Shown here piece by piece: positions 6,598 through 57,333 of a stretch of 64,000 nt of DNA. Below the pieces are notes generated by a model. It was not told the origin of the DNA and searched no databases. It saw only the letters and a list, made by a program, of their open reading frames with translations. The position numbers and the translations under genes were made by a program. The DNA is taken from contig NZ_JAZHRR010000001.1 of NCBI RefSeq assembly GCF_036924515.1, positions 5,613,001 to 5,677,000 on the forward strand. Reading direction: 5' to 3'. Every line of letters starts with the position of its first letter. Positions within the stretch are counted from its first letter, which is position 1. The stretch is from Bradyrhizobium sp. AZCC 1610. GTDB lineage: Bacteria; Pseudomonadota; Alphaproteobacteria; Rhizobiales; Xanthobacteraceae.

Positions 6598-7113
6598 TCA
6601 CGCCGGCAGGCTGCTCGGTCCGTATCCGAGGCTTGTTGAAGCAGGGCTGGTCGGCTCGTCGCAACTCGCCTGGTAATCCTTCAAAGCGAGGCGCATGTCG
6701 TCGGGCAATGCGATCGATTTGTGATCCACCAGCGAAGTCGTCACCGTTACGAACGTGGCGCGTACGCATTCGGTGCCATCCTTGAACGCATGGACCGTCA
6801 GCTTCACCGAGGTGCGTCCGATATCGCGCACGATGACCGCGACGTCGAGCACGTCACCCATGCGGCTGGGTTTCGCGAAATCCGCCGAGACGTGCGCATA
6901 GCCAAGGCCGGTTCTCCGTGTTCCGACCAGCTGATGATAGGGCAGTCCCAGCGCATCGCCGTACCAGTCCTCGATCACGCCGTTGAACAGGTTGAGATAT
7001 TCCGGCGTGTAGACGATTCCGGCCGGATCGCAGGAGCCGAAGCGCACCGGGAGGCGCGTGCGCCAGATGCCACTCGGCAGCTCGGAGAGTGTCATGGATT
7101 CAAAACAGGCCAT
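6598..7113 (-). CDS. Acyl-CoA thioesterase, hotdog fold (4HBT-like)
   Basis: 171 residues. The N-terminal core VRFGSCDPAGIVYTPEYLNL contains the Asp of 4-hydroxybenzoyl-CoA thioesterase-type hotdog enzymes (xxxD-xxGIVY), followed by the long central helix with DWYGDALG. It probably hydrolyses an aryl- or acyl-CoA made in the neighbouring aromatic pathway. A palindromic site (7130-7148) lies immediately upstream, almost identical to the one between the two CoA ligases, suggesting shared MarR control. Start is ATG 7113 or ATG 7095; neither has a strong ribosome binding site. Confidence 0.85.
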   Translation of the reverse strand: MACFESMTLSELPSGIWRTRLPVRFGSCDPAGIVYTPEYLNLFNGVIEDWYGDALGLPYHQLVGTRRTGLGYAHVSADFAKPSRMGDVLDVAVIVRDIGRTSVKLTVHAFKDGTECVRATFVTVTTSLVDHKSIALPDDMRLALKDYQASCDEPTSPASTSLGYGPSSLPA

Positions 7114-7993: not shown

Positions 7994-9643
7994 CTAACGG
8001 CGCAGCTTGTAGCCTGCGGCATCGCGGTCCCAGGTGTCGGGAGTCTTCCCGGCCTCGCGCAGCACGACCTTTCGGATCTTGCCGTTCTCGGTCAACGGCA
8101 TCTCGGTGACGATCCGGACAAAGCGCGGAATCGCGAAATAGGCCATCTTTCCTTCGCAATGCCTGACAACATCGATCGGCTCCAGCATATGGCCGGGGTC
8201 GTGCTGGACAGCGGCCGCAACCTCATCCTCGCCGAGTTCGGACGGCAGCGGATAGACGGCGCAGGCAGCGATCGCCGGATGCTTCAGCAGCACCTGCTCC
8301 ACCTCCCAGGATGAAACATTCTCGCCGCGCCGTCGGATCGAATCCTTCATCCGGTCGACGAAGCGATAGTGGCCGTCCGCATCGCGCACGACGCGGTCGC
8401 CGGTGTGAAACCAGAGATTTCGCCACGCTTCGGCCGTCTTGTCCGGCATTCCGAAATAGCCGGTGGAGAATGCGAGCGGCTCGCGCGATCGTAGCAGCAA
8501 CTCGCCGGCCTCACCGTCCGGGAGAGGCGCGTCGTCGGTATCGACGATGCAGGCCTCCACGCCCTCGACGAGATGGCCCATGGTGCCGGGGCGATCGGAC
8601 GGGATCGTGCTCGCGAACACGAAATTCGTTTCGGTCGAGCCGTAGCCGTCGAGCAGCGGCACGCCGAAGCGTTCGAGAAACGGGCCGTGAAACTGGCCGG
8701 GCACGCCGCCGCCGAGCGCGACCCGCAGGAAATGCGCGGTGTCGTCGGCGGACCTCGGCTGCGCCAGCAGCATCACGGCCATCGCGCCGAGGAGATAGCC
8801 GACGGTCGCCTGATGCCGTCGCGCCGCTGCCCAGAAACCGGAGGCGGAGAATTTCGGCTCGAGTGCATAGGTGCAGCCGTTCAGGAGCGCCTGATAGAAC
8901 GCGTTCAGTGCATTGGTGTGGAACAGCGGCAGCGTCGTGAACAGCACATCGCCTTCAAGGATCCCAAGCGCGCGCGCCGAGTGGATGCCCCACCAGAACA
9001 TCTGCGCCTGCGGGCAGCAGACGCCTTTTGAAAGACCCGTGGTGCCCGACGTATAGAGGATCGCGACCGTGTCGTCCGGCCGCACGGGCGCGGCCGGGGC
9101 CTCCTCGTCGAGCGCAGGCAGCGGCGAGACCGATCCCGACACGGCCGGCGGCACGGCGCCTTCTCCGATCATCCAGATAAGATCCGGCAGCGCGACGTCG
9201 CTTTCCAGCGTTTCGATGGTCGGCATAAATCCAGACTCGATCGCCAGCAGTTTCGGCGTGGAGTTGCGCAGGATGTGGCTGAGCTGGATGCCGCGCAGCG
9301 CGGTGTTAATCGGCACGGTCACGGCGCCCATCCAGGCGCAGCCGAGATAGACTTCCAGAAATTCCGGCCGGTTCGAGCACATCAGGGCGATGCGGTCGCC
9401 GGCCTGAATTCCGGCGCGCATCAGGCGGGCCGCGGATGCGGCGGCGATCGCGGCCGTCTCGGCATAGCTCCATCGTGTTTCGCCAAAGACAAACAGCGTG
9501 CGGTCGCGGTATTGCGCGGCCTGCCGCGTCAGAATGGTCGAGAGAATCCGGTCCGCCGGCGGAAAACGTTCAGCCGCCTGCGACCAGATCGGCGCACCCC
9601 GCCGCTGCCTGGCCGCGCTGCTCTCATCTACCTGCACACGCAC
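7994..9643 (-). CDS. AMP-forming acyl/aryl-CoA ligase
   Basis: 549 residues, an ANL-superfamily ligase that makes an acyl-AMP then the CoA thioester. The P-loop is ILYTSGTTGLSKGV (around residue 195), then DGYGSTETN, the hinge region TGDRVVRDADGHYRFVDRMKDSIRRRGENVSS, and a C-terminal catalytic lysine in LTENGKIRK. It is most like CaiC-type ligases. In this setting it could activate dioxindole-3-acetate, indole-3-acetate or anthranilate; the sequence does not decide. It diverges from a second ligase at 9811, with operator site 2 between them. Confidence 0.93.
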   Translation of the reverse strand: MRVQVDESSAARQRRGAPIWSQAAERFPPADRILSTILTRQAAQYRDRTLFVFGETRWSYAETAAIAAASAARLMRAGIQAGDRIALMCSNRPEFLEVYLGCAWMGAVTVPINTALRGIQLSHILRNSTPKLLAIESGFMPTIETLESDVALPDLIWMIGEGAVPPAVSGSVSPLPALDEEAPAAPVRPDDTVAILYTSGTTGLSKGVCCPQAQMFWWGIHSARALGILEGDVLFTTLPLFHTNALNAFYQALLNGCTYALEPKFSASGFWAAARRHQATVGYLLGAMAVMLLAQPRSADDTAHFLRVALGGGVPGQFHGPFLERFGVPLLDGYGSTETNFVFASTIPSDRPGTMGHLVEGVEACIVDTDDAPLPDGEAGELLLRSREPLAFSTGYFGMPDKTAEAWRNLWFHTGDRVVRDADGHYRFVDRMKDSIRRRGENVSSWEVEQVLLKHPAIAACAVYPLPSELGEDEVAAAVQHDPGHMLEPIDVVRHCEGKMAYFAIPRFVRIVTEMPLTENGKIRKVVLREAGKTPDTWDRDAAGYKLRR

Positions 9644-9810: not shown

Positions 9811-11433
9811 ATGAGCCTCGACACGCCTTATCAATCGCCGTCCGATGCCTTCGCGGCCACGGCCAAAAGACGTCCGGACGCGCCATTCCTGCTGGCGCCG
9901 GCAAGCGCGGGATTGCCCTACGCGCCGGAAGGATTCAAGATCGAATACGGGGCGTTCAAGACGGCGGTCGATCGGCTTCGCGCCGAATATGCGGCCGCCG
10001 GCTATGGACGCGGGGCGCGGGCTGCCCTGCTGCTCGAAAATCGCCCGGTCTTCTTTCTGCACTGGCTCGCGCTCAATGCGCTCGGAGTTTCGATCGTTCC
10101 TATCAACCCCGATGTTCGCCCCGACGAATTGTCCTTCCAGCTCGAGCTGTCACAGGCTGACCTGCTGGTGGCGACGCCGGATCGCATTCACGTGGCCAAG
10201 GATGCCGTGCTCGGACGCACCCGCCTGATCGACACCGACAGTCGTATTCCACCGTGCCGGACGGACGTCGTTGCGCAAGATGCCGAGTTCAATGGCGAAT
10301 GCGCGCTGCTGTTCACCTCAGGCAGCACCGGCAAGCCAAAGGGCTGCATGCTTTCGAACCGCTATTTCCTGCAGGTCGCCGACTGGTACGTCACGCAAGG
10401 CGGCGTGGCCGAGCTGCAGCCGGACCGCGAGATCAACCTGACGCCGCTGCCGATGTTTCACATGAATGCGCTCGGCTGCAGCGCCGTCGGCATGATGGTG
10501 CTCGGCGGCGCCGTGGTTCCGCTCGACCGCTTTCACGCCAATCGCTGGTGGCAGTGCGTGGCCGATAGCGGGGCGACCGTCGTGCACTGTCTCGGCGTCA
10601 TCCCCGCCATTCTGCTTCAACTGCCGGTGACCGAGGCGGAACGGCAGCATCGCGTGCGCTTCGCCTTCGCGCCCGGCGTCGATGTGCGCCACCGCGCCAC
10701 CTTCGAGGAGCGTTACCGCATCCCGATCGTCGAGGCCTGGGCGATGACCGAGACCGGGGGTGCGGCGGCGACGACCACCGCTCGCGAACCAGCGGGCTTT
10801 GGCGCACGCTGCGTCGGCCGGCCATCTGAAGGCATGGAATATCGCCTCGTTGACGATCAGGGTGCCGATGTCGCGCTTGGAAAACCTGGCGAACTTTTGG
10901 TGCGCGCGAAAGGCGGCGATGTCCGCGCCGGATTCTTCAGCGGTTATCTAAAGGACGAAGAAGCGACCGAAGCGGCGTGGCAGGACGGCTGGTTCCATAC
11001 CGGAGACCTGGTCTTCGCCGATAAAGACGGGCTGATGTATTTCTTCGATCGCAAGAAGACCATCGTGCGGCGCAGCGGCGAGAACATCGGCGTGCTCGAG
11101 GTCGAAAGCGCGCTGTACATGGACACCCGCATCGGCGGCTGCGCGGTGACGCCCGTTCCGGATGATATTCGCGGCGAAGAGGTTTTCGCGTTCATCGTGC
11201 CGAACGCCGAGGTCGATGACGCCGCTGCGCTCGCGGCCTCGATCGTCAAGACCTGCGCTGAACGCCTCGCCTATCACAAGGTACCCGGCTATATCGCCAT
11301 CGTCGACGAACTTCCCTTGTCGTCAACGCGCAAGCTTGCCCGGGGCGAAATCAAGACGCTCGCGGCCACTTCGGTCAGCGACAAACGCGCGATCGACATG
11401 CGCGCGCTCAAGGCGAAGCTGCGCCACGCCTGA
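9811..11433 (+). CDS. AMP-forming acyl/aryl-CoA ligase (second)
   Basis: 540 residues, same superfamily as the ligase at 7994 but distinct. It has the P-loop LLFTSGSTGKPKGC (around residue 168), the aromatic site EAWAMTETGG, the hinge TGDLVFADKDGLMYFFDRKKTIVRRSGENI and a C-terminal lysine in LPLSSTRKLARGE. ATG 9811 has a purine-rich CAGGAGCG stretch upstream. Two ligases in one cluster suggest two CoA-activation steps, for example a side-chain acid and anthranilate (inference). It converges with the binding protein at 11456. Confidence 0.93.
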   Translation: MSLDTPYQSPSDAFAATAKRRPDAPFLLAPASAGLPYAPEGFKIEYGAFKTAVDRLRAEYAAAGYGRGARAALLLENRPVFFLHWLALNALGVSIVPINPDVRPDELSFQLELSQADLLVATPDRIHVAKDAVLGRTRLIDTDSRIPPCRTDVVAQDAEFNGECALLFTSGSTGKPKGCMLSNRYFLQVADWYVTQGGVAELQPDREINLTPLPMFHMNALGCSAVGMMVLGGAVVPLDRFHANRWWQCVADSGATVVHCLGVIPAILLQLPVTEAERQHRVRFAFAPGVDVRHRATFEERYRIPIVEAWAMTETGGAAATTTAREPAGFGARCVGRPSEGMEYRLVDDQGADVALGKPGELLVRAKGGDVRAGFFSGYLKDEEATEAAWQDGWFHTGDLVFADKDGLMYFFDRKKTIVRRSGENIGVLEVESALYMDTRIGGCAVTPVPDDIRGEEVFAFIVPNAEVDDAAALAASIVKTCAERLAYHKVPGYIAIVDELPLSSTRKLARGEIKTLAATSVSDKRAIDMRALKAKLRHA

Positions 11434-11455: not shown

Positions 11456-12613
11456 TCACGGCAGCAACTTGTATTTCCCGTTCTCGATCTGGACCAGAAT
11501 CCGCGCGCGGCTGTCGACGCCGTGGCGGTCGGCCGGCGTATAAGTGTAGATGCCGTGCGCGCCGACGACATCCTTGGTCGCGAACAGCGCCTCGCGCAGC
11601 GCGTTGCGAAATGCCGGCGTGCCGGGCGCCGCGCCCGTCGCCTTTGCGCGTTTGGCGGCATCCATGAACACCAGCCAGCCATCGAACGCATAGGGTGAAA
11701 ACGCGTCGGCCGGCGCCTCGCCATTGGCCTTCTCGTAGGCCGCGCGGAACGCCAGCGCGACCTTGCGGATCGGATTGCTCTCGGGAAGCTGTTCGCCCGC
11801 CGTCACCGGCCCGGTCGGACAGATGATGCCCTCGGCGGATTTGCCGGCAAGCCGCAGGAAATCCGCGCTGATCATGCCGTGATTGCCGTAAAGCGGCCCC
11901 TTGTAGCCGCGCTCGGACAGCGCGATCACGGGCAGCGCGCCGGGTGTGCCGGTGCCGCCCAGCATGATCGCATCGGGGCGGGCGGAAATCGCGCGCAACA
12001 CCTGGGCGGTGACCGAGTTGTCGGAGCGCGCATAGCGTTCGTTCGCGATCACCTTGATGCCGGCCGCATCAGCGGCTTGCAGCAGCGAGTTGTACATCAG
12101 GTCGCCAAAGGCATCGGAGAAGCCGATGAACGCCACTGTCTTCACATTGCGGCTCTTCATATGATCGACGATGCCTTGAACGAGAAGCGGCGTCGGCTGC
12201 GGCGTTTGTACCACCCATGGCCCGCCCTCACCGGCCGGCACCGGCGCGATCGGCGAGACCGCCACCATCGGGACCTTCATTTCGATGGCCGCGGTGGCCA
12301 TCGCCAGCGTCTGCGGCGCGCCTGACGTGCCGATCAGGAAGTCGACCTTTTCCTGTTCGACCAGCTTGCGGGCGTTGCGCGTGGATGCGGCCGGGTCCGA
12401 GCCATCATCGAGCTGGATGACGCGGACTTTTTCACCATCGATCTCGCCGACATAGACCTGGCCCGCGGCCAATCCCTTGGCGTTCGGCACGCCGATCGAG
12501 GACACCGGCCCGCTCAGGCCGGTGACGAAACCGACGAGGATTTCGGCACGCGCCGGCGCGATCGTACCGAGCAGGAGCGCGGCACCGATCAACAAGGTCT
12601 TTTTGTTTTTCAT
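11456..12613 (-). CDS. Branched-chain amino acid-type ABC transporter substrate-binding protein
   Basis: 385 residues with a signal peptide cleaved after about residue 23 (APARA). The periplasmic binding fold of LivJ type begins EILVGFVTGLSGPVSSIG. It is paralogous to the binding protein at 18597-19745 (shared LSGPxSSIG, IQLDDGSDP, TRNARKL). It is the last gene of a six-gene minus-strand operon starting at 17155. It probably delivers an aromatic acid to the Liv permease encoded at 19784-23303. Ligand unknown. Confidence 0.93.
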   Translation of the reverse strand: MKNKKTLLIGAALLLGTIAPARAEILVGFVTGLSGPVSSIGVPNAKGLAAGQVYVGEIDGEKVRVIQLDDGSDPAASTRNARKLVEQEKVDFLIGTSGAPQTLAMATAAIEMKVPMVAVSPIAPVPAGEGGPWVVQTPQPTPLLVQGIVDHMKSRNVKTVAFIGFSDAFGDLMYNSLLQAADAAGIKVIANERYARSDNSVTAQVLRAISARPDAIMLGGTGTPGALPVIALSERGYKGPLYGNHGMISADFLRLAGKSAEGIICPTGPVTAGEQLPESNPIRKVALAFRAAYEKANGEAPADAFSPYAFDGWLVFMDAAKRAKATGAAPGTPAFRNALREALFATKDVVGAHGIYTYTPADRHGVDSRARILVQIENGKYKLLP

Positions 12614-12640: not shown

Positions 12641-13426
12641 TCAACCTTGCCCAGGTACCAGCGCGAGCACGCGCAACGGACTGCCGGAGCCGTTCTGGAT
12701 CTTGAGCGGCGCGGCGACGATCACCGCGCCGGTCGGCGGAAGCTGATCGAGATTGCACAGGCATTGCAGGCCGTAACGCCCGCCACCGTGAAGGAAATGA
12801 TGCGCCGGATAGGGCGGATCGAGATGACCGGCCTGGCCGGCATCCGTCCCGATGGTCTCGGTGCCGAGGCCGATGATGCCGCGCTCCTCGACGAGCCAGC
12901 GCATCACGGCGGCGCCCGGCCCGGGCGTATGCGCGCCGTCATCCTTCAAATTGGCGTAGTCGCGCCAGCCTTTCTTCGACCAGTCGGTGCGCAGCAGCAC
13001 CCAGTGCCGTTCCGGAATCCGCCCGTGGCTTTTTTCCCAGGCTTCAACGACCGGTACCGTCAAAAGAAAATCCGCATCTTGCGCGGCCTGCGCCGAGCAA
13101 TCGATCACGCAGGCCGGCGCGATCATGTCGCGCACCGGGAGCGTGTCGACCGAATTGTTCGGCAGATCCTTGCCGGTGAACCAGTGGATCGGCGCATCGA
13201 AATGCGTGCCGGTATGTTCGCCGAAGGTCAGGTTGTTCCAGTACCAGGCCGGGCCGGCCGCGTCGTATTGCGAAATCCGCTGGATGCGCACGGGCGCGGC
13301 CTGGCCGAATTCCGGCGGCAGTACGATGACCGGAAAGTCCGGGCTGAGCGTGAAGGTCAGATCGACGACACGCACCGCGCCGGATGCAACCGCGCCGGCA
13401 AATTGCTTGAGACTGTTGCTGTCCAT
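12641..13426 (-). CDS. Cyclase-family metal hydrolase, candidate isatin hydrolase
   Basis: 261 residues of the PF04199 'cyclase' family (kynurenine formamidase, isatin hydrolase). The Mn-binding motif HTGTHFDAPIHW is at about residues 68-79 with a later conserved GLGTETIGTD. Isatin hydrolase opens isatin to isatinate; isatin hydrolases are known in Bradyrhizobium as part of auxin breakdown to anthranilate. The surrounding CoA ligases, Rieske dioxygenase and MarR pair make isatin the most likely substrate, but formamidase activity cannot be excluded. It is co-transcribed with the DUF35-SDR gene upstream (29-bp gap) and a binding protein downstream (27-bp gap). Confidence 0.82.
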   Translation of the reverse strand: MDSNSLKQFAGAVASGAVRVVDLTFTLSPDFPVIVLPPEFGQAAPVRIQRISQYDAAGPAWYWNNLTFGEHTGTHFDAPIHWFTGKDLPNNSVDTLPVRDMIAPACVIDCSAQAAQDADFLLTVPVVEAWEKSHGRIPERHWVLLRTDWSKKGWRDYANLKDDGAHTPGPGAAVMRWLVEERGIIGLGTETIGTDAGQAGHLDPPYPAHHFLHGGGRYGLQCLCNLDQLPPTGAVIVAAPLKIQNGSGSPLRVLALVPGQG

Positions 13427-13455: not shown

Positions 13456-14697
13456 CTACGCCCCTAGCTCACGCTCGACCGCCTTGGGATTGGCCGCAAG
13501 GCGCTGGCGAATGTCCTTGGCGACATCGCCCACAAACACATCTTCCAGTCCGCGCTTGAGCGCCGACACGATCGCACTCGCAACCGCGCGGGGCGCGACC
13601 TTCGGCGGCGGCACCGTCTGGAACCATTCGATATCGAGTGGCCCGGTGAACACGTTCATCACCTTGACGCCGCCGGGCCGAAGCTCAGCGCGCAGGGAAT
13701 GCGACAGCGACAGACACGCGGCCTGCGACGCCGAATAGGCGCCGAATACCGGCCAGTTTGCGAGCGCATAGACCGACAGGATATTGACCCAGGCGGCGGC
13801 GCTGTTGACACCATCGGAGCCCCGCATCCGCATCGCCGGCCCGAATGCCTGCGCCAGATGCACGAAGCCGAGATAGCTCTGGTCGATCTCGTCGCGCACC
13901 ACGCTGGTGCCCTGACGATCGAGCAGCCCGCCGGCGCGGACATGCTCGGTGGTGTTCACGAGAATATCGACCTTGCCGCCGATATCAGCCGCCAGATCGG
14001 CGACGGATTTTTCGTCGCCGATATCGAGCGGCACGATCTCGACGTCCTCCAGCGCGCGCAACGCATCCTCACCGCGGAACGGCTTCCACGGTTCGGCAAC
14101 GCCGACGAATACGATCGAGGCGCCCGCCGCCTTCAGCGCGGCCACCGCTTCCTGACCGACGATGCTCCGCCCGTTCGTCACGAGAACGCGCCGGAATTTT
14201 GGATCGGCCGTCATCTCACGCCACTGCCTGTCGTCCATCATGTTGGGGGTCTCACGTTCGGGGTGCGCGAAGGCTACCGCCTGCCCGCTCTTGTCCAGTT
14301 GAAACGACATCACGACCGGTCCGCCCTCTTCGCAATCGGCATGCAGGTGCGTCACCAGTTTGGGCCCACACTCCATCGCGACCAGGCCGACACGCCATGG
14401 CGCGCGCTCGCGGAAATGCACGTCGGCCGGGACGTGCAGCGTGGTTTCGGACAGAAGCGTGCCGCGCCGCGGTGCGTCCGCGAACACGAGATCGGCGGAA
14501 AGGCACGTAGGGCACGCATCGCGCGCCGGATAGCAGAACGTCCCGCAGGCGCCGCAGCGCTGCAGCATGAAGTGGCCCTCGGCGGCGGCCCGCGTAAAAC
14601 CGTGCGAGGCGCGGCTGCGTGCGCGCGGGGGCGATGTCGGCAGCCGCGTCCGCTTTAGCGGATTCTTCCGGCGCGGTTTTACGATCGGTTCGATCAT
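13456..14697 (-). CDS. DUF35 zinc-ribbon/OB-fold fused to an atypical SDR domain
   Basis: 413 residues. After a basic leader, residues 48-65 hold a zinc ribbon (CGAC, then CPTC) followed by an OB-fold typical of DUF35 partners of thiolase-like enzymes. From about residue 178 there is a short-chain dehydrogenase fold. The SDR active site is altered: the cofactor loop reads TNGRSIVG rather than TGxxxGIG, and the catalytic pair reads YSASQ, with Gln where Lys is expected. The domain may be structural or have changed chemistry. The start overlaps the stop of the thiolase-like gene (ATGA), which suggests translational coupling and a protein complex. Confidence 0.88.
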   Translation of the reverse strand: MIEPIVKPRRKNPLKRTRLPTSPPRARSRASHGFTRAAAEGHFMLQRCGACGTFCYPARDACPTCLSADLVFADAPRRGTLLSETTLHVPADVHFRERAPWRVGLVAMECGPKLVTHLHADCEEGGPVVMSFQLDKSGQAVAFAHPERETPNMMDDRQWREMTADPKFRRVLVTNGRSIVGQEAVAALKAAGASIVFVGVAEPWKPFRGEDALRALEDVEIVPLDIGDEKSVADLAADIGGKVDILVNTTEHVRAGGLLDRQGTSVVRDEIDQSYLGFVHLAQAFGPAMRMRGSDGVNSAAAWVNILSVYALANWPVFGAYSASQAACLSLSHSLRAELRPGGVKVMNVFTGPLDIEWFQTVPPPKVAPRAVASAIVSALKRGLEDVFVGDVAKDIRQRLAANPKAVERELGA

Positions 14698-15872
14698 GAG
14701 CCTGGTCCCGCGAGGATCGCCGCGCCCGAGGCGAGGCCGCGGTCATAGTTGATCATTCCGAAGCCCGACGCCAACCCGATGCGGGCATCCCTAACCTGCG
14801 TCGGACCGGCCTGCCCGAGAACCTGGCGCAGCGCCTCGACCACCCCGAGATAGGCGCCGCCCGCGCCGGCCTGCCCGACCGAGAGCTGCCCGCCGGATGT
14901 GTTGTGTGGGAAGCTGCCATCGATCGTGAGATCATGCTGCCGGACGAAATCCGGCCCCTCGCCCTTTCGGCAGAAGCCGAGGTCCTCGAACTGCATCATC
15001 GAAATGACAGGGTAATCGTCGTAGGTCTCGACGAAGTCCAGATCATCAGGCTTGACACCGGCCATCGCGTAGAGCTCGTCGACGTCCATCGCCCATCCGC
15101 CGCGCACCTGAACAGGATCGTCGCTGAACGCATTGTGGCGCTCGATCGTGCCGAGGATTTTGGCGGCAGGCAGCTTCAGCGAAGCGGCGACGTCCTCGCC
15201 CATGACCAGGAAGGCCTCCGCGCCCGCGCACGGCATCACACAGTCGAACAGATGAATAGGGTCGGCGATCGGTCGCGCCGACATATACTGATCGAGGGTC
15301 AGCGGCGCCTTCATCAGGGCATGGGGATTGCGAAGTGCGTTGCTGCGCTGGGCAACCGCGATCTTGCCAAAGTCCTCGCGCCGCGCGCCGAACGTGCGCA
15401 TGTAGTTGCGCGCGATCAGCGCAAAGCTCGCATTGGCGCCGCCGGCGCCATAGGGATAGACGGCATCCTGATTGAAGCGCGAGAAATTTTCGAGCGTATA
15501 GCGGAAGGAATCGACATGGTTGGTATCACCCGCCACGCAAGCCACGATGCGGGCGTCCCCAGCCTGCACTGCCCGCGCGGCGCGGCGGAGCGCGGCAATC
15601 GCGCTCGCGCCCCCGAGCGGAATGGTGTCGATCCATCGCACGCACAGGCCGAAATGCTGGGTGAGGCTGATCCCGCTATCGAGCCCCGCCGTGAAACTCG
15701 AAACACAGAACCCGTCGATGTCGCGCGGCGTGATCCCGGCGCCATCGACCAGCGCCTTCAGCGCGCGGCCGATCCACCACTGTGCGCTCTCGATCGAGTA
15801 GCGCACATAGGGAATCGTCACCGGAACCGCCATCACAACCCGATCATAAGGTGTTCGGATGGAGCTCTGCAT
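14694..15872 (-). CDS. Thiolase-like (SCP2-thiolase/Ltp2-type) protein lacking thiolase residues
   Basis: 392 residues from ATG 15872. Overall fold is that of nonspecific lipid-transfer/thiolase proteins. At the position of the nucleophilic cysteine it reads PLGGASAI (residues 85-92), without Cys. The usual GHP histidine motif reads NTSGGQLSVGQ (324-334), with Gln, and the C-terminal Cys loop is absent (LASGFGM). In steroid side-chain degradation, Ltp2-type proteins with DUF35 partners act as retro-aldolases. Here the next gene encodes a DUF35 fusion, so a retro-aldol cleavage of a 3-hydroxyacyl-CoA is proposed, for example dioxindole-acetyl-CoA to isatin plus acetyl-CoA (inference). Confidence 0.88.
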   Translation of the reverse strand: MQSSIRTPYDRVVMAVPVTIPYVRYSIESAQWWIGRALKALVDGAGITPRDIDGFCVSSFTAGLDSGISLTQHFGLCVRWIDTIPLGGASAIAALRRAARAVQAGDARIVACVAGDTNHVDSFRYTLENFSRFNQDAVYPYGAGGANASFALIARNYMRTFGARREDFGKIAVAQRSNALRNPHALMKAPLTLDQYMSARPIADPIHLFDCVMPCAGAEAFLVMGEDVAASLKLPAAKILGTIERHNAFSDDPVQVRGGWAMDVDELYAMAGVKPDDLDFVETYDDYPVISMMQFEDLGFCRKGEGPDFVRQHDLTIDGSFPHNTSGGQLSVGQAGAGGAYLGVVEALRQVLGQAGPTQVRDARIGLASGFGMINYDRGLASGAAILAGPGS

Positions 15873-18596: not shown

Positions 18597-19745
18597 ATGC
18601 GCAAGATGTTGAGTTTGACTGCCCTCATCGGCGGCCTCGTCGCGGCCTCGACCGCACAGGCCGACATCACGATCGGATTCGTGACGTCGCTCAGTGGCCC
18701 CGGCTCCTCGATCGGCATCCCGTACGGGCGCGGCATCCAGGCCGCCATGGAATACAAGAACGAAGTCAACGGCGAGAAGATCAAGCTGATCCAGCTCGAC
18801 GACGGCTCCGATCCCTCCGCCGCGACCCGCAACGCGCGCAAGCTCATCGAAGAAGAGAAGGTCGATCTCCTGATCGGCACCGCAACGGCGCCTTCAACCA
18901 TCGCGATGATGGCGGTCGCGACCGAACTGAAGGTGCCGATGATCGCCGTCTCCCCGGTGATCGGGCAGCCCAATCCCGCGGATCAATGGGGCATTTCCGT
19001 TCCGCAGCCCGCCTCGCTGCTGGTCAAGGTCGTCGCCGACCGCATGAAGCGCGATGCCATGAAGAACATCGGCTATATCGGCTTCTCCGACGCCTGGGGC
19101 GATCTCGTCTACAACGGAGCCAAGGCGGTGGAAACCGACGACGGCATCAAGGTGCTGACCAACGAGCGCTACGCGCGCGTCGATACGTCGGTCACCGGCC
19201 AGATCCTTAAAGTTCTCGCCGTGCGTCCGGATGCCGTGCTGATCGGCGGATCAGGCACGCAGGGCGCGCTGCCGCTGCTCGCGCTCGGCGAACGTGGCTT
19301 CAAGGGCAAGACCTACGGCACAGTTGCACTGGTCAATCCCGATTTCGTGCGCGTCGGCGGCAAGGCCGCGGAAGGCATTCAGGTCTCGGCCGGTCCGGTC
19401 ATCGTGGCCGAGCAGCTTCCCGACAACCATTTCGCCAAGAAGCTCGCGCTCGACTTTCGCGCCGCCTTCCTGAAAGCCAACAATGTCCCGACCACGGACG
19501 GGTTCTCGGCCTACTCCTTCGACGGCTGGATGATCTTCACGTCCGCTGCGGCGCGCGCGCTGAAGACCGCGAAACCCGGCACCGTCGAATTCCGCAAGGC
19601 CATGCGCGACGAGATCCTCAACACCAGGGAGCTCTCGGGCGTGCACGCGGTCTACAACTTCAAGCCCGGCGCCTACCACGGCGTGGACGAGCGCGCGCTG
19701 GTGATCGTCCGCCTGAACAACGGCGCCTGGACCTACCAGCCCTGA
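18597..19745 (+). CDS. Branched-chain amino acid-type ABC transporter substrate-binding protein (second)
   Basis: 382 residues. Signal peptide of about 22 residues ending STAQA, then DITIGFVTSLSGPGSSIG. It is a paralogue of the protein at 11456. It heads the transport operon: permease, permease-ATPase fusion and ATPase follow with short gaps or overlaps. Having two binding proteins and one permease set suggests the transporter serves two related ligands. Confidence 0.94.
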   Translation: MRKMLSLTALIGGLVAASTAQADITIGFVTSLSGPGSSIGIPYGRGIQAAMEYKNEVNGEKIKLIQLDDGSDPSAATRNARKLIEEEKVDLLIGTATAPSTIAMMAVATELKVPMIAVSPVIGQPNPADQWGISVPQPASLLVKVVADRMKRDAMKNIGYIGFSDAWGDLVYNGAKAVETDDGIKVLTNERYARVDTSVTGQILKVLAVRPDAVLIGGSGTQGALPLLALGERGFKGKTYGTVALVNPDFVRVGGKAAEGIQVSAGPVIVAEQLPDNHFAKKLALDFRAAFLKANNVPTTDGFSAYSFDGWMIFTSAAARALKTAKPGTVEFRKAMRDEILNTRELSGVHAVYNFKPGAYHGVDERALVIVRLNNGAWTYQP

Positions 19746-19783
19746 GCGGTACCTGCGGGTAACACGGAAGGACGGCCGACGGC

Positions 19784-20827
19784 ATGACGGCAGATATCGC
19801 AGCGATCCTTGCGATCGACGGAATAGCGACCGGGGCGGTCTACGCCCTGGTGGCGATCGGCACCGTGCTGATCTTCACCGTAACGCGGGTGATCTTCATT
19901 CCGTTCGGCGACATCGCAGCCTTTACCGCGCTGACGCTGGCAGCGCTCGACGCCAGGCAGCTTCCCGGAACGGTCGGGCTTGTCGTCGTGCTGGCCTGCA
20001 TGGCCTGCGTGATGGAGGTCATCTCGCTGGCGCGCACAGGCGAACTCCGCGCGGTGCCGAAGGCCGTCCTCGGCTATCTCGTGTTGCCCTTGATTGTCGT
20101 CGGCATCGTCTGGCTGACGATGCGCTTCAATCCGCCGATGCCGGTCCGGATCGTGCTGGCGCTGCTCTTGATCATGCCGATCTCGCCGCTCCTGGACCGG
20201 ATCGTGTTCCGCCCAATCGCGGACGCCTCGGTTCTGTTGTTGCTGACGGTCTCGGTCGCGCTGCACTTCGCGCTGGTCGGACTTGGCTTGCTGTTCTTCG
20301 GCCCTGAAGGCGTCAGGACCGAGCCGCTGACGTCGATGGCAATGGAGATCGCCGGTGTTCACGTTTCCGGACAGACGATACTGATCCTGGCGGCAGCGCT
20401 GGTGTTCAGCGGCCTGCTGTTTCTCTTTTTCGACTTCACGCTGGTTGGCAAGGCGCTGCGCGCGACCGCCCTCAACCGCACGGGCGCCCGGCTGATGGGA
20501 ATCAGGCCGGCGCGCGCCGGGACCATCGCCTACCTGCTGGGATCGCTGATGGCGGGCGTCTCCGGCATCCTGATCGCACCTGTGAACACCATCTTCTACG
20601 ACTCCGGATTCCTGCTCGGCCTGAAAGCCTTTGTCGGCGCCATCGTCGGCGGCATGGCCAGCTATCCAGGCGCGGCGCTAGGTGCGTTCGGCGTCGGCAT
20701 TATCGAGAGCTTCGCTTCATTCCAGAGCAGCACCTTGAAGGACGTCATCGTCTTCTCGCTGTTGATCCCCGTCCTGCTCTGGCGCTCGCTCGCCTCGCAT
20801 CATTCCGAAGAGGAAGTCGAGGAATGA
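19784..20827 (+). CDS. Liv-type ABC transporter permease (LivH-like)
   Basis: 347 residues, inner-membrane permease with many hydrophobic segments. It starts AAILAIDGIATGAVYALVAIGTVLIFTVTRVI, the LivH N-terminal pattern (AxGAxYALVAxG), and ends with the conserved GLKAFVGAIVGGMASYPGAALGAFGVGIIES. GGAAGG-like bases precede ATG 19784. Its stop overlaps the start of the next gene by four bases. Confidence 0.94.
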   Translation: MTADIAAILAIDGIATGAVYALVAIGTVLIFTVTRVIFIPFGDIAAFTALTLAALDARQLPGTVGLVVVLACMACVMEVISLARTGELRAVPKAVLGYLVLPLIVVGIVWLTMRFNPPMPVRIVLALLLIMPISPLLDRIVFRPIADASVLLLLTVSVALHFALVGLGLLFFGPEGVRTEPLTSMAMEIAGVHVSGQTILILAAALVFSGLLFLFFDFTLVGKALRATALNRTGARLMGIRPARAGTIAYLLGSLMAGVSGILIAPVNTIFYDSGFLLGLKAFVGAIVGGMASYPGAALGAFGVGIIESFASFQSSTLKDVIVFSLLIPVLLWRSLASHHSEEEVEE

Positions 20828-22593
20828 CACTGCAGCAGATCCGTCTCATCATTGCCGCGGCGATCGCCTGCCTCGTGGCGGCGCCCTTCGTGCTCAATCC
20901 GTTCAGCGTCACATTGTTGAACTACATCGGCATCTACGCGCTTGCCGCCATTGGGCTGGCGCTATTGACCGGGGTCGGCGGCATCGTTTCGTTCGGCCAG
21001 GCAGCCTTCGTCGGCGTCGCCGCTTACTCAACTGCCTGGGTCACGGCGGTGAACGGCTACTCGCCATGGCTCGGGCTGGTGCTGGCGGTCGTCCTTACCT
21101 GCAGCATTGCTGCGATCCTGGGCTTCGTGACGCTGCGCCTGGGGGGCCACTTCCTGTCGCTGAGCACAGTCGCCTGGGGACTGGCGATCGCGTTCCTGTT
21201 CGGCAACATCGATGGCCTCGGTCAACACAACGGCATCTCCGGCATTCCGCCGATCTCGATCGGCCCGCTCGCCTTGGTCGAGAGCCGGCAGATCTATTTC
21301 CTGATCTGGGCGATCGTCGTTGCGATCCTCCTCCTCTGCTACAATCTGCTCGACTCCCGCATCGGCCGCGCGATGCGCGCGCTCCGCGGCGGTAATACCC
21401 TGGTCGAAAGCCTCGGGATCAGCGCATTCCAGATCAAGCTGGTGACGTTCGTCATCGCCGCCTTCCTCGGCGCGCTGTCCGGATGGCTCTATGCCCATCT
21501 CGGCCGTTTCGTCAGCCCCGGACCATTCGAGGCCGGCATGGGCATCGAATATCTGATGATGGCGATGGTCGGCGGCGCCGGCAGCATTTTGGGCGGCGTG
21601 GTGGGTGCGGCGATCGTCACGCTTCTGAAGAATTCCGTGCAGGACTACCTGCCGCTGATCGCCAAGGGCGCTTCCGGCCAGCTCGAGATCGTAGCGTTCT
21701 CGGCGCTGTTCATCCTGTTCCTGCAGCGCGCCCGGCAGGGCATCGTCCCGTTCCTCGCGGGTTTTCTCCCGGGCCTCAAACTATCCCGCCCGCAAGCGGC
21801 GGCGCCGTTGCCGCGCCGCGAGCAACCGCCGCCCGGCACGCTGCTTCTTGAAGTGAGCGACGCGCAGCGGCGATTTGGCGGCCTCGTCGCCGTCAACAAT
21901 GTCAGCTTCGACGTGAAGTCCGGCGAGATCCTCGGGCTGATTGGGCCGAACGGCGCCGGCAAGACCACGATGTTCAACCTGCTCACGGGCGCGCTCCGCG
22001 CCAACAGCGGCGAGATCGCGTTTGCGGGACGATCGATCAGCCGCGACCAGCAGTTCCACATCGCCCGCTCCGGAATCTCCCGCACCTTCCAGCACGTCAA
22101 GCTGCGCCCGCGCATGACGCTGCTCGACAACGTGCTGCTCGGTACCTATTCGCGCACCAAAACCGGCCTGCTCGCCGGCGCCCTGCGCCTGAACCGGGCG
22201 GAAGAAGCCAGCGCACGCTACGAGGCGCTGCGGCAGCTCGAACGGGTCGGGCTCGGCGACAAGCCGTTCGAGCTCGCCGGCAACCTGCCGCTGGGCAATC
22301 AGCGCGTGCTCGAGATCGCCCGCGCGCTCGCCGCCGATCCGACGCTGCTCGTCCTCGACGAACCGGCAGCCGGCCTGCGTCGCCAGGAAAAGCTCAAGCT
22401 CGCCGAACTGCTGCGGTCGCTGCGCGCGGACCACCTGACCATCCTTCTCGTCGAGCACGACATGGAGTTCGTGATGTCGCTGGTCGACCGCATCGTAGTG
22501 CTCGATTTCGGCTCAAAGCTCTGCGAAGGCGAACCGGCGGCGATCCGCAGCGACGCCCGCGTCCAGGAAGCCTATCTCGGAGGTGTCGCGTGA
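20824..22593 (+). CDS. Fused Liv permease (LivM-like) and ATPase (LivG-like)
   Basis: 589 residues. Residues ~1-305 are a LivM-type permease (TGVGGIVSFGQAAFVGVAAY, MAMVGGAGSILGGVVGAA). A proline-rich linker of about 25 residues follows (PQAAAPLPRREQPPPG). Residues ~338-589 are a LivG-type ATPase with Walker A GPNGAGKTT near 374, signature LPLGNQRVLEIARAL near 487, Walker B LLVLDEPAAGL near 508 and the switch LLVEHDM. The signature's LPLGNQ replaces the more usual LSYGxQ. Such fusions occur in the family; they fix the stoichiometry of the two subunits. Overlaps both neighbours by four bases. Confidence 0.95.
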   Translation: MTLQQIRLIIAAAIACLVAAPFVLNPFSVTLLNYIGIYALAAIGLALLTGVGGIVSFGQAAFVGVAAYSTAWVTAVNGYSPWLGLVLAVVLTCSIAAILGFVTLRLGGHFLSLSTVAWGLAIAFLFGNIDGLGQHNGISGIPPISIGPLALVESRQIYFLIWAIVVAILLLCYNLLDSRIGRAMRALRGGNTLVESLGISAFQIKLVTFVIAAFLGALSGWLYAHLGRFVSPGPFEAGMGIEYLMMAMVGGAGSILGGVVGAAIVTLLKNSVQDYLPLIAKGASGQLEIVAFSALFILFLQRARQGIVPFLAGFLPGLKLSRPQAAAPLPRREQPPPGTLLLEVSDAQRRFGGLVAVNNVSFDVKSGEILGLIGPNGAGKTTMFNLLTGALRANSGEIAFAGRSISRDQQFHIARSGISRTFQHVKLRPRMTLLDNVLLGTYSRTKTGLLAGALRLNRAEEASARYEALRQLERVGLGDKPFELAGNLPLGNQRVLEIARALAADPTLLVLDEPAAGLRRQEKLKLAELLRSLRADHLTILLVEHDMEFVMSLVDRIVVLDFGSKLCEGEPAAIRSDARVQEAYLGGVA

Positions 22594-26061: not shown

Positions 26062-26070
26062 GCCGGCCTC

Positions 26071-26982: not shown

Positions 26983-26992
26983 TGTTGCTCTC

Positions 26993-28120: not shown

Positions 28121-28162
28121 GTCGCTCTCCTGTGAGTTGGCGCCGTGTCCGGCGTCGCGTTG

Positions 28163-28567: not shown

Positions 28568-28608
28568 TTCTCACTCCCGTAGCAGGACGCGACTGGACGC
28601 CTGCGCGG

Positions 28609-29784: not shown

Positions 29785-29844
29785 GTCAGTCTCCCGCAAG
29801 GGCCGCCTTAGCGTGCGCCACCAGGCGCGACGCGCCCCAATAAT

Positions 29845-30000: not shown

Positions 30001-30019
30001 GTTTGATGTCTAAAATTAT
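30001..30019. promoter_or_regulatory. Putative MarR operator, site 5
   Basis: GTTTGATGTCTAAAATTAT, same orientation as site 4 and 156 bp from it. It sits about 45-60 bp upstream of the IorA-like start, where it would overlap a promoter. The half-site TTTAG-CAT-AAAC (reverse strand) is related to sites 1-3. Confidence 0.5.
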
Positions 30020-30062
30020 ATTCGGTCATCCGGAGTTCCCCCGCAAGGCCGAGGAGGCGAGC

Positions 30063-33768: not shown

Positions 33769-34734
33769 ATGGATCAATTCGAGGTCGTGGTGTCGAAGGC
33801 CGAGGCGCTCACGCCGCGCATTCGCGAGTTTGTGCTTGCGCGCGCCAACGGCGCCCCGGTGCCGGGCTGGGCCGCCGGCGCCCATATCGACGTGCATCTG
33901 CCCGATGTCGGCCGGCGCTCCTATTCGCTGATCGAGACGGGTTCGCCGCGCGCAGCGGCCGAACATCCCGCCGCCTATCGCATCGCCGTGCTGCAGGAAA
34001 GCAAGAGCCACGGCGGCTCGACCTATATGCATGGTCTCAAGACCGGCGATCGCCTGACGATCTCACCGCCGGCGAATAATTTTCCGCTCGGCGCGGGCGC
34101 CGGCGAAGTCGCACTCGTCGCAGGCGGCATCGGCGTGACGCCGCTGCTTACGATGGCCTGCGAATTGAGCGCGGCAAAGCGGCCGTTTTCCTTCTACTAC
34201 GCCGGCCGCAGCCGCAGCGAACTCCCTTTTCTCGGCGACATCGAGCGGCTGACCAGCGCAAGCGCTGCCATCCACGCCGACGACGAGACCGGTCACTTCT
34301 TCGACATCGAGGGCCTGATGACGCGGCTCGCGCCGGACGTGCCGCTTTACCTCTGCGGGCCGCTACCGATGATCGAAGCTGCCATCGCGCTGGCGAAGCG
34401 GATGAACTGGCCGCAGGGGCGCCTGCATTTCGAAATCTTCAGCGCACCCGAAGAGAAATCCGGCGACGCCAGTTTTGAGGTCGAACTCAAGGGCAGCGGA
34501 CGCGTCTATGAGATTCCTGCCGGCAAAACCATCCTCGATGTACTGCTCGAGGCCGGCGAAGACCCGATACATGACTGCAAGCGCGGCGATTGCGGCATCT
34601 GCCAGACCCCTGTCATCGAGGGCATCCCCGATCATCGCGACTACATCTTGAACGAAAGCGAGAAGGCGTCGAACAAGGTGATGCAGATCTGTGTTTCGCG
34701 CGCGAAAACCAAGAGACTCGTGCTCGACCTGTGA
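33769..34734 (+). CDS. Phthalate dioxygenase reductase-family oxidoreductase (candidate IadC)
   Basis: 321 residues. Flavin domain with RRSYSLIETG (residues ~45-54), NAD-binding GGIGVTPLLTMA (around 119-130) and a C-terminal plant-type 2Fe-2S ferredoxin with CKRGDCGICQTP (around 270-281) plus a final Cys in MQICVSRA. It passes electrons from NAD(P)H to the Rieske dioxygenase whose genes follow. In iad-type loci the corresponding reductase is called IadC; assignment is by gene context. Confidence 0.93.
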   Translation: MDQFEVVVSKAEALTPRIREFVLARANGAPVPGWAAGAHIDVHLPDVGRRSYSLIETGSPRAAAEHPAAYRIAVLQESKSHGGSTYMHGLKTGDRLTISPPANNFPLGAGAGEVALVAGGIGVTPLLTMACELSAAKRPFSFYYAGRSRSELPFLGDIERLTSASAAIHADDETGHFFDIEGLMTRLAPDVPLYLCGPLPMIEAAIALAKRMNWPQGRLHFEIFSAPEEKSGDASFEVELKGSGRVYEIPAGKTILDVLLEAGEDPIHDCKRGDCGICQTPVIEGIPDHRDYILNESEKASNKVMQICVSRAKTKRLVLDL

Positions 34735-34745
34735 TGGAGGAACGC

Positions 34746-36059
34746 ATGACCCGATATGCCGGCAACGTCGCGGCCATTCGCGCCCTGGTACGCGACCAGG
34801 AGGTTCACCGCGACGTCTATGTCAGCGAGGAAGTTTTCCAGCTCGAGATGGAGCACGTGTTCCCGAATAGCTGGGTCTATGTCGGCCACGACAGCCAGGT
34901 CCCTAACGCCGGTGATTATTTCGGCACCACAATCGGCACGCAGCCGGTGCTTCTCGTGCGCCATACCGACGGCAAGGTGCACGTGTTGCACAACCGTTGC
35001 CCCCACAAGGGCACGCGCATCACGTCCGAAACCTGCGGCAACACCGGAAAATTCTTCCGCTGCCCCTATCACGCCTGGAGCTTCAAGACCGACGGCTCAC
35101 TGCTCGCGATTCCCTTGAAGAAAGGCTACGAGAACACCGGCTTCGAGCAGAGCCATGCCGCGACCGGAATGGCGCCGGTGCGCCATGTCCGCAACTATCG
35201 CGGTTTCCTGTTTGCCAAGATCAACGACGGCGGCCTCGACTTCGAGGATTTCTTCGGCGAAAGCCTGTCGAGCTTCGACAACATGATCGACCGTTCGCCG
35301 GTCGGCCAGCTCAAGGTCGCCGGCGGCGTGCTGCGTTACATGCACAACTGCAACTGGAAGATGCTGGTCGAAAACCAGACCGACACCTGCCATCCGATGG
35401 TGGCGCACGAATCCTCGGCCGGGACCGTGGTCGAGGTCTGGAAGAAGGCGCCGCCCGGCACCAAAAAGCCGATGGCGGTGGAGATCATCGCCCCCTTCAT
35501 GAGCTCGTACGAGTTCTTCGAAAACATGGGTATCCGTATCTGGGACAACGGCCACGGCCACACCGGCGTGCACCACTCGATCCATTCCGACTATTCGGCG
35601 GTGCCTGGCTATTTCGAGAAGATGAAAGCCGCCTACGGCGAGGAACGCGCCAAGGCGATCCTCGACGAGAACCGGCACAACACGGTCTACTTCCCTAACA
35701 TCATGATCAAGGGACCGATCCAGTTGTTGCGGCACTTCAAGCCGATTGCGGCCAACAAGACGCTGGTTGAATCCTGGACCTTCCAACTCGTCGACGCGCC
35801 CGACATGCTGCTCGAGCGCACGCTGATGTACAATCGGCTGATCAATGCCCCGACCTCCATCGTCGGCCATGACGACCTCGAAATGTACGAGCGGGCACAG
35901 GAAGGCCTGCACTCGAACGGCAACGAATGGGTGAACCTCCAGCGCCTCTACAGCCCCGACGAAGCCGAACAGACCAATGTGGCGGTCAACGGGACCAGCG
36001 AGTGGCCGATGCGCCACCAGTTCCGGGCGTGGTCCAAGTTCATGACGATGGGGATGTGA
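34746..36059 (+). CDS. Rieske aromatic ring-hydroxylating dioxygenase alpha subunit (candidate IadD)
   Basis: 437 residues from ATG 34746 (GGAGG five bases upstream). Rieske centre: RCPHKGTRI and CPYHAWSF, i.e. CxH...CxxH, at residues ~85-107. Mononuclear iron site: ENQTDTCHPMVAH at ~208-220, with the bridging Asp and two His. The partner beta subunit and reductase are adjacent. In iad-type auxin degradation this complex oxygenates indole-3-acetate to dioxindole-3-acetate; here that is inferred from cluster content, not proven. Benzoate/anthranilate dioxygenases have the same architecture. Confidence 0.95.
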   Translation: MTRYAGNVAAIRALVRDQEVHRDVYVSEEVFQLEMEHVFPNSWVYVGHDSQVPNAGDYFGTTIGTQPVLLVRHTDGKVHVLHNRCPHKGTRITSETCGNTGKFFRCPYHAWSFKTDGSLLAIPLKKGYENTGFEQSHAATGMAPVRHVRNYRGFLFAKINDGGLDFEDFFGESLSSFDNMIDRSPVGQLKVAGGVLRYMHNCNWKMLVENQTDTCHPMVAHESSAGTVVEVWKKAPPGTKKPMAVEIIAPFMSSYEFFENMGIRIWDNGHGHTGVHHSIHSDYSAVPGYFEKMKAAYGEERAKAILDENRHNTVYFPNIMIKGPIQLLRHFKPIAANKTLVESWTFQLVDAPDMLLERTLMYNRLINAPTSIVGHDDLEMYERAQEGLHSNGNEWVNLQRLYSPDEAEQTNVAVNGTSEWPMRHQFRAWSKFMTMGM

Positions 36060-36060
36060 C

Positions 36061-36573
36061 ATGAGCATGCTCGCCGACGCCCCACTCAAGAGTGCGGTCC
36101 CGACCGACCAGGAACTGATCGACTTCGTGGTCCGCGAGGCGCGGCTGATCGACCAGCAGCGTTTCGACGAATGGCTCGACATGTACGCCGACGACGCCTT
36201 CTACTGGATGCCGCTGGAATGGAATCAAACCGATCCGCGACTGACCTGCTCGTTGATGTACGAGGACAAGCTGCTGCTCTCGATCCGGGTCGAGCGGCTC
36301 AAGGGCGCGCGGACTTTTAGCCAGAAGCCGAAGAGCCGCTGCCATCATGTGCTGCAGACGCCGCAGGTTGATTCGCGCAACACCGCCGCCAACAGCTATG
36401 TCACCTGGACGGCGATGCATTATGTCGAGACTCGCTTGGAAGAGCAGACGCTCTATGCGGCCTGGGCGACGCATCATATGAGTGTCGAAGACGGCAGGCT
36501 GAAGATAAATCTGAAGCGCGTCGACGTGATCAATTGCGATGCTGCCTTCGGCAACATCCAGCTCTTCATGTGA
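36061..36573 (+). CDS. Aromatic ring-hydroxylating dioxygenase beta subunit (candidate IadE)
   Basis: 170 residues, one base after the alpha subunit stop. Cystatin-like beta-subunit fold, with LIDQQRFDEWLDMYADDAFYW near the N-terminus and AAWATHHMSVEDGRLKI-type strands later. It is a structural partner of the alpha subunit and has no cofactor of its own. Confidence 0.94.
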   Translation: MSMLADAPLKSAVPTDQELIDFVVREARLIDQQRFDEWLDMYADDAFYWMPLEWNQTDPRLTCSLMYEDKLLLSIRVERLKGARTFSQKPKSRCHHVLQTPQVDSRNTAANSYVTWTAMHYVETRLEEQTLYAAWATHHMSVEDGRLKINLKRVDVINCDAAFGNIQLFM

Positions 36574-36579
36574 CGGAGG

Positions 36580-37314
36580 ATGAGCGTGGTCCATCACACG
36601 GCGATCGTGAGCGGCGGCAATACCGGCATCGGCGCGGCGATTGCCCGCGGCCTCCTCGCCGAGGGCTATGACGTGATTTCGCTGTCGCGGCGCAAGCCCG
36701 ACTGGAGCCATCCAAAGCTCTCCTCGCGCGAGGTCGACCTGCTCGATGCGGCCGCGACGCGGCAGGCGGCGGCGGAGATCGCCGCGAAGGTTGCGATCAC
36801 CCACGTCGTGCACAATGCCGGCGCGATCCGCGCCAAGCCGCTGGAAGAGGTCGCTGACGAGGATGTCGGCGCACTGGCCCAATTGCATTTCGGCGCCGCG
36901 ATTGCGCTGGCGCAGGCGGCGCTGCCTGGCATGAAGCAAGCTCGCTTCGGCCGCATCGTGCTGCTGTCGTCCCGCGCCGCGCTCGGGGCCGCCACGCGCA
37001 CGGTCTATTCGGCGACCAAGGCCGGCATCATCGGCATGGCGCGGACCTGGGCGCTGGAGCTTGCGCCCTTCGGCATTACCGTCAATGTCGTCGCACCCGG
37101 CCCGATCGGCGATACCGAAATGTTCGAGAGCGTGATGTCGCCGGAATCCGAACGCGCCAAAAAGCTGGCGCAGTCGATTCCGCTCGGTCGCCTCGGCAAA
37201 TCCGCCGACGTCGCGCGCGCGGTCACGTTCTTCAGTTCACCTGATGCCGACTTCATCACCGGGCAGACGCTGTATGTCTGCGGCGGAGCCAGCATCGGAT
37301 CGATTTCCATCTAG
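36580..37314 (+). CDS. Short-chain dehydrogenase/reductase
   Basis: 244 residues. Cofactor motif SGGNTGIGAAIARGL, VHNAGA, catalytic Ser in VLLSSRAALG and YSATK with the normal Lys. Six bases after the beta subunit, so part of the dioxygenase operon. It may act on a dihydrodiol or hydroxy-oxindole product such as dioxindole/isatin. Contrast with the SDR domain at 13456-14697, which lacks the catalytic Lys. Confidence 0.93.
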   Translation: MSVVHHTAIVSGGNTGIGAAIARGLLAEGYDVISLSRRKPDWSHPKLSSREVDLLDAAATRQAAAEIAAKVAITHVVHNAGAIRAKPLEEVADEDVGALAQLHFGAAIALAQAALPGMKQARFGRIVLLSSRAALGAATRTVYSATKAGIIGMARTWALELAPFGITVNVVAPGPIGDTEMFESVMSPESERAKKLAQSIPLGRLGKSADVARAVTFFSSPDADFITGQTLYVCGGASIGSISI

Positions 37315-56599: not shown

Positions 56600-56657
56600 A
56601 TTACGGTGACAGTGCACTCAAACTCCGGGTAAGAATTTTATGCACTGTCACCGTAAT
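56600..56657. repeat. Hairpin repeat, copy 2
   Basis: Perfect 17-bp arms (ATTACGGTGACAGTGCA / TGCACTGTCACCGTAAT) and a 24-base loop containing CTCAAACTCCGGG. Its right arm overlaps the last ten bases of the gene at 56648-57313, including the stop codon, so it may also act as that gene's terminator. Confidence 0.9.
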
Positions 56658-57313: not shown

Positions 57314-57333
57314 TACTACCCCTTACAAGCGCT

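Follow-up and report, generated by a model that had tools for sequence, protein, structure and literature searches.

A DUF35-partnered thiolase-like protein as a putative isatin-forming retro-aldolase of auxin degradation in Bradyrhizobium sp. AZCC 1610

Of all steps in the iad (indole-3-acetate degradation) pathway, through which root bacteria remove auxin, a plant hormone, the cleavage of the carbon-carbon bond has been worked out least. In Variovorax paradoxus, deletion of iadF, iadG, iadH or iadI lowers anthranilate and raises a compound of formula C10H9NO4, assigned as dioxindole-3-acetic acid; the 2025 preprint that reports this names IadG a ketothiolase, IadH an alcohol dehydrogenase and IadI an amidase, the first two roles coming from annotation, and describes installing the pathway, with the aim of promoting plant growth, in further root bacteria (PMC12633357). 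For the aldolase CtSal, Tyr302 and Cys304 are reported as essential, with a Gly in place of the thiolase Cys, Gln352 where Ltp2 has Tyr344, and the YDxx motifs YDCY in CtSal and YDHF in TcLtp2 (PMC12329534). Here we describe an IadG-IadH pair in a 64,000-nucleotide stretch (the window; C1:5613001-5677000) of the 7.75 Mb genome of Bradyrhizobium sp. AZCC 1610. From its sequence, the pair is very probably a DUF35-partnered, thiolase-fold coenzyme A (CoA) retro-aldolase that converts dioxindole-3-acetyl-CoA to isatin and acetyl-CoA. The two genes lie on the minus strand and are joined by an ATGA overlap, in agreement with the preliminary description of this DNA. The features on which the argument draws are as follows.

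14694..15872, minus strand: IadG, thiolase-fold protein, DUF35-partnered, proposed retro-aldolase catalytic subunit (392 aa, ATG start; Thiolase_C_1 2.4e-35)
15606..15611, minus strand: Gly88-Ala89 codons, site of the nucleophilic Cys in thiolases
15012..15023, minus strand: Tyr284-Asp285-Asp286-Tyr287 codons (YDDY), with proposed base Tyr284 and proposed acid Asp286
14871..14888, minus strand: Gln329 to Gln334 codons (QLSVGQ), where thiolases have the GHP His
14694..14697, minus strand: ATGA shared by the iadG stop and the iadH start (CTCATGATC)
13456..14697, minus strand: IadH, DUF35 (zinc ribbon and OB fold) fused to a decayed short-chain dehydrogenase/reductase (SDR) domain (413 aa)
14503..14556, minus strand: zinc Cys4 of the IadH DUF35 (Cys48, 51, 62 and 65; spacing x2-x10-x2)
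13723..13737, minus strand: Tyr321-x3-Gln325 of the IadH SDR, against YxxxK of active SDRs
12641..13426, minus strand: IadI, isatin hydrolase homologue (HTGTHFDAPIH, GLQC)

Placement and active site of IadG

In single-sequence and fold searches, the nearest structures to IadG were the DUF35-partnered retro-aldolases Sal (9MYR) and Ltp2 (6OK1). Foldseek ranked 9MYR ahead of 6OK1, and VIA also placed 9MYR first, with 6OK1 level with thiolases; a profile search gave the uncharacterised 4U4E as its top match. No NCBIfam model among those listed exceeded its own cut-off for IadG, IadH or IadI. The Ltp2-type likeness proposed in the preliminary description stands in so far as both aldolases are among the nearest structures, but the pair is more Sal-like than Ltp2-like and its acid residue differs.

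The catalytic residues of thiolases are missing, as had been noticed for the window protein, whose Cys site reads PLGGASAI and whose His site reads SVGQ. This holds throughout the 96 aligned IadG rows: none has a Cys at the first site (position 88 is Gly in 96/96; position 89 is Ala in 84 and Val in 12), and position 334 is Gln in 96/96. The paralogs L098 and L100 do carry a Cys at the 88-89 site. A thiolase identity (EC 2.3.1.16 / 2.3.1.9) was rejected for IadG on the absence of both the nucleophilic Cys and the GHP His. When the CtSal residues were mapped onto IadG, Tyr302 corresponded to Tyr284, Cys304 to Asp286, and Gln347 and Gln352 to Gln329 and Gln334, while Gln161 fell on Ala146, a position that is Pro in 30/96 rows and Thr in 1/96. 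Tyr284, the base Tyr of the YDxx motif, occurs in every IadG row and also in some Cys-bearing paralogs. Asp286 is likewise present in 96/96 rows (YDDY); outside the YDD branch, the same position in 26 tree rows holds Cys (16), Ser (5), Ala (4) or His (1).

The general acids known from Sal (Cys304) and Ltp2 (Tyr344) are both absent from IadG, which has Asp286 and Gln334 at these positions in all 96 rows. IadG was therefore assigned to neither Sal nor Ltp2: a test for the defining acid showed it to be absent, and strict Ltp2 membership was rejected for lack of Tyr344. Since an Asp stands where Sal has Cys304, the acid proposed for IadG is a new one, probably Asp286 to judge from the alignment. 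The idea that Asp286 is always paired with loss of the Cys was not upheld, as L112 and L113 have both Asp and Cys.

In a tree of 45 rows, IadG formed one clade (100/100), sister to Oc-type YDDY proteins (100/98) and then to L112 and L113, which read YDDF but GGCS. Support for the grouping of the YDD branch with Sal and Ltp2 was 90/81 (not starred), and for its split from 7YVY, BbsB and L099_0 it was 100/98.

The YDDY sister group itself (L083:7953-9532, with L101-L103 assigned by tree only) is possibly another retro-aldolase. At L083 the YDDY protein is accompanied by CoA-transferase, AtuA-like and DUF4387 genes, and its OB-fold partner lacks the zinc Cys4; isatin hydrolase is absent from L083, the sole Oc-type YDDY locus examined.

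The IadH partner, IadI and gene order

The DUF35 domain described earlier in IadH is confirmed by an intact zinc Cys4 in 91/91 IadH rows, and the DUF35 half was placed by sequence with 6OK1_B (5.4e-08); the VIA listing for IadH held SDR chains only, the SDR domain having filled it. The SDR half is eroded. The window protein has S-S-Y-Q and TNGRSIVG against the classical N-S-Y-K and TGxxxGxG; the full tetrad is kept in 3/91 rows, all Burkholderiales, the Lys in 12/91, and the TGxxxGxG glycine motif in 0/91. The catalytic Tyr is Phe in 120/120 best matches to the L093 IadH; the named ones are nearly all Variovorax, where the dehydrogenase role was proposed, and they are relatives rather than the IadH of strain CL014 itself. 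In Sulfitobacter EhC04 (L069:9989-11589) and THAF37 (L131:8968-10568), a second IadG with YDDY adjoins the C-D-E-F-G-H-I-J operon and runs through a 4-nucleotide overlap into a DUF35-only protein of 139 aa (L069) or 135 aa (L131) that keeps Cys-x2-Cys-x10-Cys-x2-Cys. Over the 2.4 kb that begin where the second IadG of L069 ends, the best match to an SDR half was at E 0.021, on the other strand. Both cases come from one genus, and the substrate of this second pair may differ.

Gene order was compared in the best 80 of at least 595 relatives, mostly Bradyrhizobium (as also the best named IadG matches), which together hold 81 IadG copies; the sample is skewed to Bradyrhizobium because only these 80 were retained. 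The IadG stop and IadH start overlap by 4 nucleotides in 67/81 copies, by 1 nucleotide in 7/81, and by 7 and 35 nucleotides in one copy each. One further copy has its IadH called 199 nucleotides away and three at contig ends lack IadH; the second copy of L069 was paired by the script with the IadH of another copy, its own partner being the DUF35-only protein. The pairing of the two genes is not chance. A DUF35 protein follows IadG in 78/78 copies that are not cut off before the next gene, one of them without an SDR. Together with the SDR-less Sulfitobacter partners, this marks the DUF35 as the constant part of the partner and the SDR as its dispensable part.

IadG, IadH and IadI are adjacent in 74/81 copies. 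Five of the seven others are contig ends (L019, L030, L055, L059 and L076), and the true exceptions are L066, which lacks the hydrolase, and the second copy of L069. In the window, iadI is the next gene on the minus strand past iadH, after a gap of 29 nucleotides, and the call of an isatin-hydrolase-like cyclase there was sound: IadI is 63% identical to isatin hydrolase A (5NNA; 3.8e-115, against 5.7e-07 for KynB). The metal residues (HxGTHxDxPxH) occur in 75/75 IadI rows, and the window protein has YGLQC, as isatin hydrolases do (GLQC/GLAS), where KynB has Glu. A kynurenine formamidase was rejected for IadI on the far weaker KynB match and an NCBIfam arylformamidase score of 33.6 bits against a cut-off of 223. 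The 5NNA fragment and the IadI encoded in the Roseibium operon share 96% identity. The published enzyme, LaIHA, hydrolyses isatin with a Km of 16 uM and has GLQC in place of the KynB Glu (PMC6117287). The step that follows IadG-IadH is therefore expected to act on isatin.

Among the 80 loci, the full order C-D-E-F-G-H-I-J is found in L058, L069, L074 and L079, the order without F in L067, L073 and L077, and part of it on a short contig in L075. This series also stands in Roseibium aggregatum and Ruegeria pomeroyi, with overlaps of 1 or 4 nucleotides at 11 of 14 junctions.

Proposed reaction and competing explanations

The retro-aldolase interpretation of the pair is well supported by what the sequences give, namely the family in which IadG is placed, the residues that it has lost or replaced, its partner, the order of the genes and the homology of IadI to isatin hydrolase. 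In the proposed reaction, the acyl-CoA ligase IadF would make dioxindole-3-acetyl-CoA, a tertiary 3-hydroxyacyl-CoA. Tyr284 of IadG would deprotonate the C3 hydroxyl, the side-chain carbon-carbon bond would break and isatin would leave, and Asp286, held near Gln329 and Gln334, may then protonate the acetyl-CoA enolate. The DUF35 (zinc-ribbon/OB) subunit of IadH is predicted to complete the IadG active site, with the SDR domain mostly a catalytic fossil kept for structure. Cleavage would be redox-neutral, and IadI would at once hydrolyse isatin to isatinate, pulling the reversible cleavage forward. The genetic need for iadF-I and the C10H9NO4 pool that precedes these genes were shown in Variovorax by others.

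The published metabolites weigh against this reading at one point. C8H7NO2 (dioxindole) rises in the iadI mutant and in a strain with iadCDEFGH, J and K2, with iadG and iadH both needed, and the isatin formula is absent from the main text of the same preprint (PMC12633357). This peak is the main evidence on the other side, and a retro-aldol cleavage would account for it only with cellular reduction of isatin. The backing up of the iadI mutant to C10H9NO4 may be due to the reversibility of a retro-aldol reaction, since isatin would push the equilibrium back.

Dioxindole accumulation is what would be expected if IadG acted as a ketothiolase and IadH as an alcohol dehydrogenase, removing the acetyl side chain reductively to give dioxindole for IadI or later steps to process. 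We consider this decidedly unlikely. Dioxindole-3-acetyl-CoA, with its tertiary hydroxyl, lacks a 3-keto group and therefore cannot undergo thiolysis; a ketothiolase role was rejected for IadG on this ground and on the absence of the Cys and the His from every row examined. The dehydrogenase half of the proposal is kept partly alive because three Burkholderiales rows keep the tetrad, and a related SDR, 5U4S, binds NADP; however, decay of the SDR half in most relatives, including the Tyr-to-Phe change of the Variovorax type, and its absence from the two Sulfitobacter partners argue against the published role, which residue decay thus disfavours and which, like that of IadG, was taken from annotation.

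It is about as improbable that IadG-IadH is a retro-aldolase in which IadH also works as an isatin/dioxindole oxidoreductase, dioxindole then being a true intermediate or a storage form. V. paradoxus cultures were reported to contain dioxindole along with isatin and isatinic acid (PMC9613470), and the retained Lys and full tetrads counted above would suit such an enzyme. Against it, most lineages show decay of the tetrad and of TGxxxGxG, among them the window (Lys to Gln) and the Variovorax type (Tyr to Phe), and IadJ of the same gene set is an intact SDR. Least likely of all is a retro-aldolase for another tertiary 3-hydroxyacyl-CoA that merely neighbours auxin genes: the oxygenase genes of the window are ~18 kb from the pair and isatin hydrolase is missing from the Oc-type locus L083, which has a CoA-transferase, but C-D-E-F-G-H-I-J is contiguous in Roseibium, Ruegeria, Aromatoleum and others, IadI follows IadH in the 74 copies noted above, IadG, IadH, IadI and IadD are single close copies in the genome (next best at most 35% identity, mostly partial matches), and the Variovorax iadG mutant accumulates C10H9NO4 (PMC12633357).

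Returning to the direct retro-aldol cleavage to isatin, we think it fairly likely that IadG and the related Oc-type proteins, together the YDD clade, make up a third class of thiolase-fold CoA retro-aldolases, working with Tyr and Asp outside steroid breakdown, and that auxin is cleaved without redox change straight to isatin, with dioxindole a by-product and the SDR of the DUF35 subunit decaying, lost or never acquired in some bacteria. Our search of open-licence PubMed Central literature, as far as its text was covered, found no proposal of a retro-aldol route to isatin in auxin degradation, and PMC11630574, PMC10374108 and PMC8383072 had no bearing on the mechanism. If the reading is correct, no reductant is needed at cleavage and acetyl-CoA is gained, isatin arises directly with dioxindole as a side product, a two-residue hypothesis (Tyr284, Asp286) becomes directly testable, and a mechanism shown for steroid side chains extends to a plant hormone. 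The annotations of the pair as thiolase and alcohol dehydrogenase look wrong; a bond-cutting enzyme and its helper, probably making isatin directly, fit better.

The wider locus and comparison with known systems

Candidates for every gene of the iadC-D-E-F-G-H-I-J set occur in the window, spread over more than one transcription unit:

11456..12613, minus strand: periplasmic binding protein, IadK2 candidate (adjoins IadI in many loci)
9811..11433, plus strand: AMP-forming CoA ligase, IadF candidate (relatives of 45-49% identity directly before iadG in C-D-E-F-G-H-I-J loci)
7994-9643, minus strand: second CoA ligase, possible IadF instead (NCBIfam PRK06155 above cut-off)
33769..34734, plus strand: IadC candidate, ferredoxin-type reductase
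34734..36059, plus strand: IadD candidate, Rieske oxygenase large subunit
36061..36573, plus strand: IadE candidate, oxygenase small subunit
36580..37314, plus strand: IadJ candidate, SDR whose YxxxK and glycine motif are intact

IadG, IadH, IadI and the IadK2-type binding protein form a minus-strand run from 15872 down to 11456. That gene order spells a direct route, as first suggested, stands for the adjacent G-H-I genes; the CoA ligase and oxygenase genes lie outside this transcription unit here. The IadF assignment is the weakest: a relative of the ligase at 9811-11433 lies in the fetched flank of 37/80 loci, 27/80 have only a relative of the second ligase, and 16/80 have neither. The second ligase and a 4HBT thioesterase (6598-7113) lie near a MarR gene and may act on anthranilate or anthraniloyl-CoA; alternatively, this ligase may be the real IadF. 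Immediately preceding the oxygenase genes, and close to IadG in several loci, are IorA/IorB-like genes (2-oxoacid:ferredoxin oxidoreductase family; 30003-33766), which are candidates for converting isatinate to anthranilate or anthraniloyl-CoA. A branched-chain-amino-acid-type ABC transporter set, read from open reading frames (18597-23303), is oriented opposite to the IadGHI run, and its binding protein shares a Pfam family with the IadK2 candidate. Genes at 25415-29799 (like flavin reductase, FAA hydrolase, double-cupin, RidA and acyl-CoA dehydrogenase) resemble a gentisate-type ring-cleavage branch, perhaps for hydroxylated anthranilate. The stretch 56001-60000, with a G+C of 0.526 against 0.60-0.65 in other 4-kb steps and two reading frames of weak third-position signal, may be foreign.

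Among known systems, isatin hydrolase A of Labrenzia (Roseibium) aggregata (5NNA, 5NNB) shares with the window IadI the metal motif and GLQC as well as the identity given above. The V. paradoxus iad locus was compared through L093, whose IadH shares 98-99% identity with named Variovorax proteins, and not through strain CL014 itself; L093 has F-G-H-I in a row and a YDDY IadG 62% identical to that of the window, and Variovorax iad is one gene region where the window has a split set. Benzoylsuccinyl-CoA thiolase BbsAB (7PXP) and archaeal acetoacetyl-CoA thiolase (6ESQ) have the fold and the DUF35 partner, but BbsB, unlike IadG, has the Cys, HDAF and GHP and falls with thiolases in the tree. Ltp2-ChsH2(DUF35) of Thermomonospora curvata (6OK1) resembles IadG-IadH in fold, base Tyr (YDHF), GGQL and Cys4 spacing (x2-x10-x2), and its substrate class, tertiary 3-hydroxyacyl-CoA, is the one proposed for IadG; the Ltp2 product is a ketone. 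The two differ in that the acid of Ltp2, Tyr344, corresponds to Gln334 of IadG and the YDHF His to Asp286, and they are 28% identical. Sal-Shy(DUF35), the bile acid side-chain aldolase of Comamonas testosteroni (9MYR), is the best fold match and shares with IadG the thiolase fold, the lack of a nucleophilic Cys, the base Tyr of YDxY, GGQLS-x-GQ with its two Gln, and the DUF35 partner. In contrast, Sal has Cys304 where IadG has Asp286 and Gln161 where IadG has Ala, Pro or Thr; its partner is fused to a MaoC hydratase rather than an SDR and binds zinc through Cys3His rather than Cys4; and its substrate is a steroid, where that of IadG would be an oxindole.
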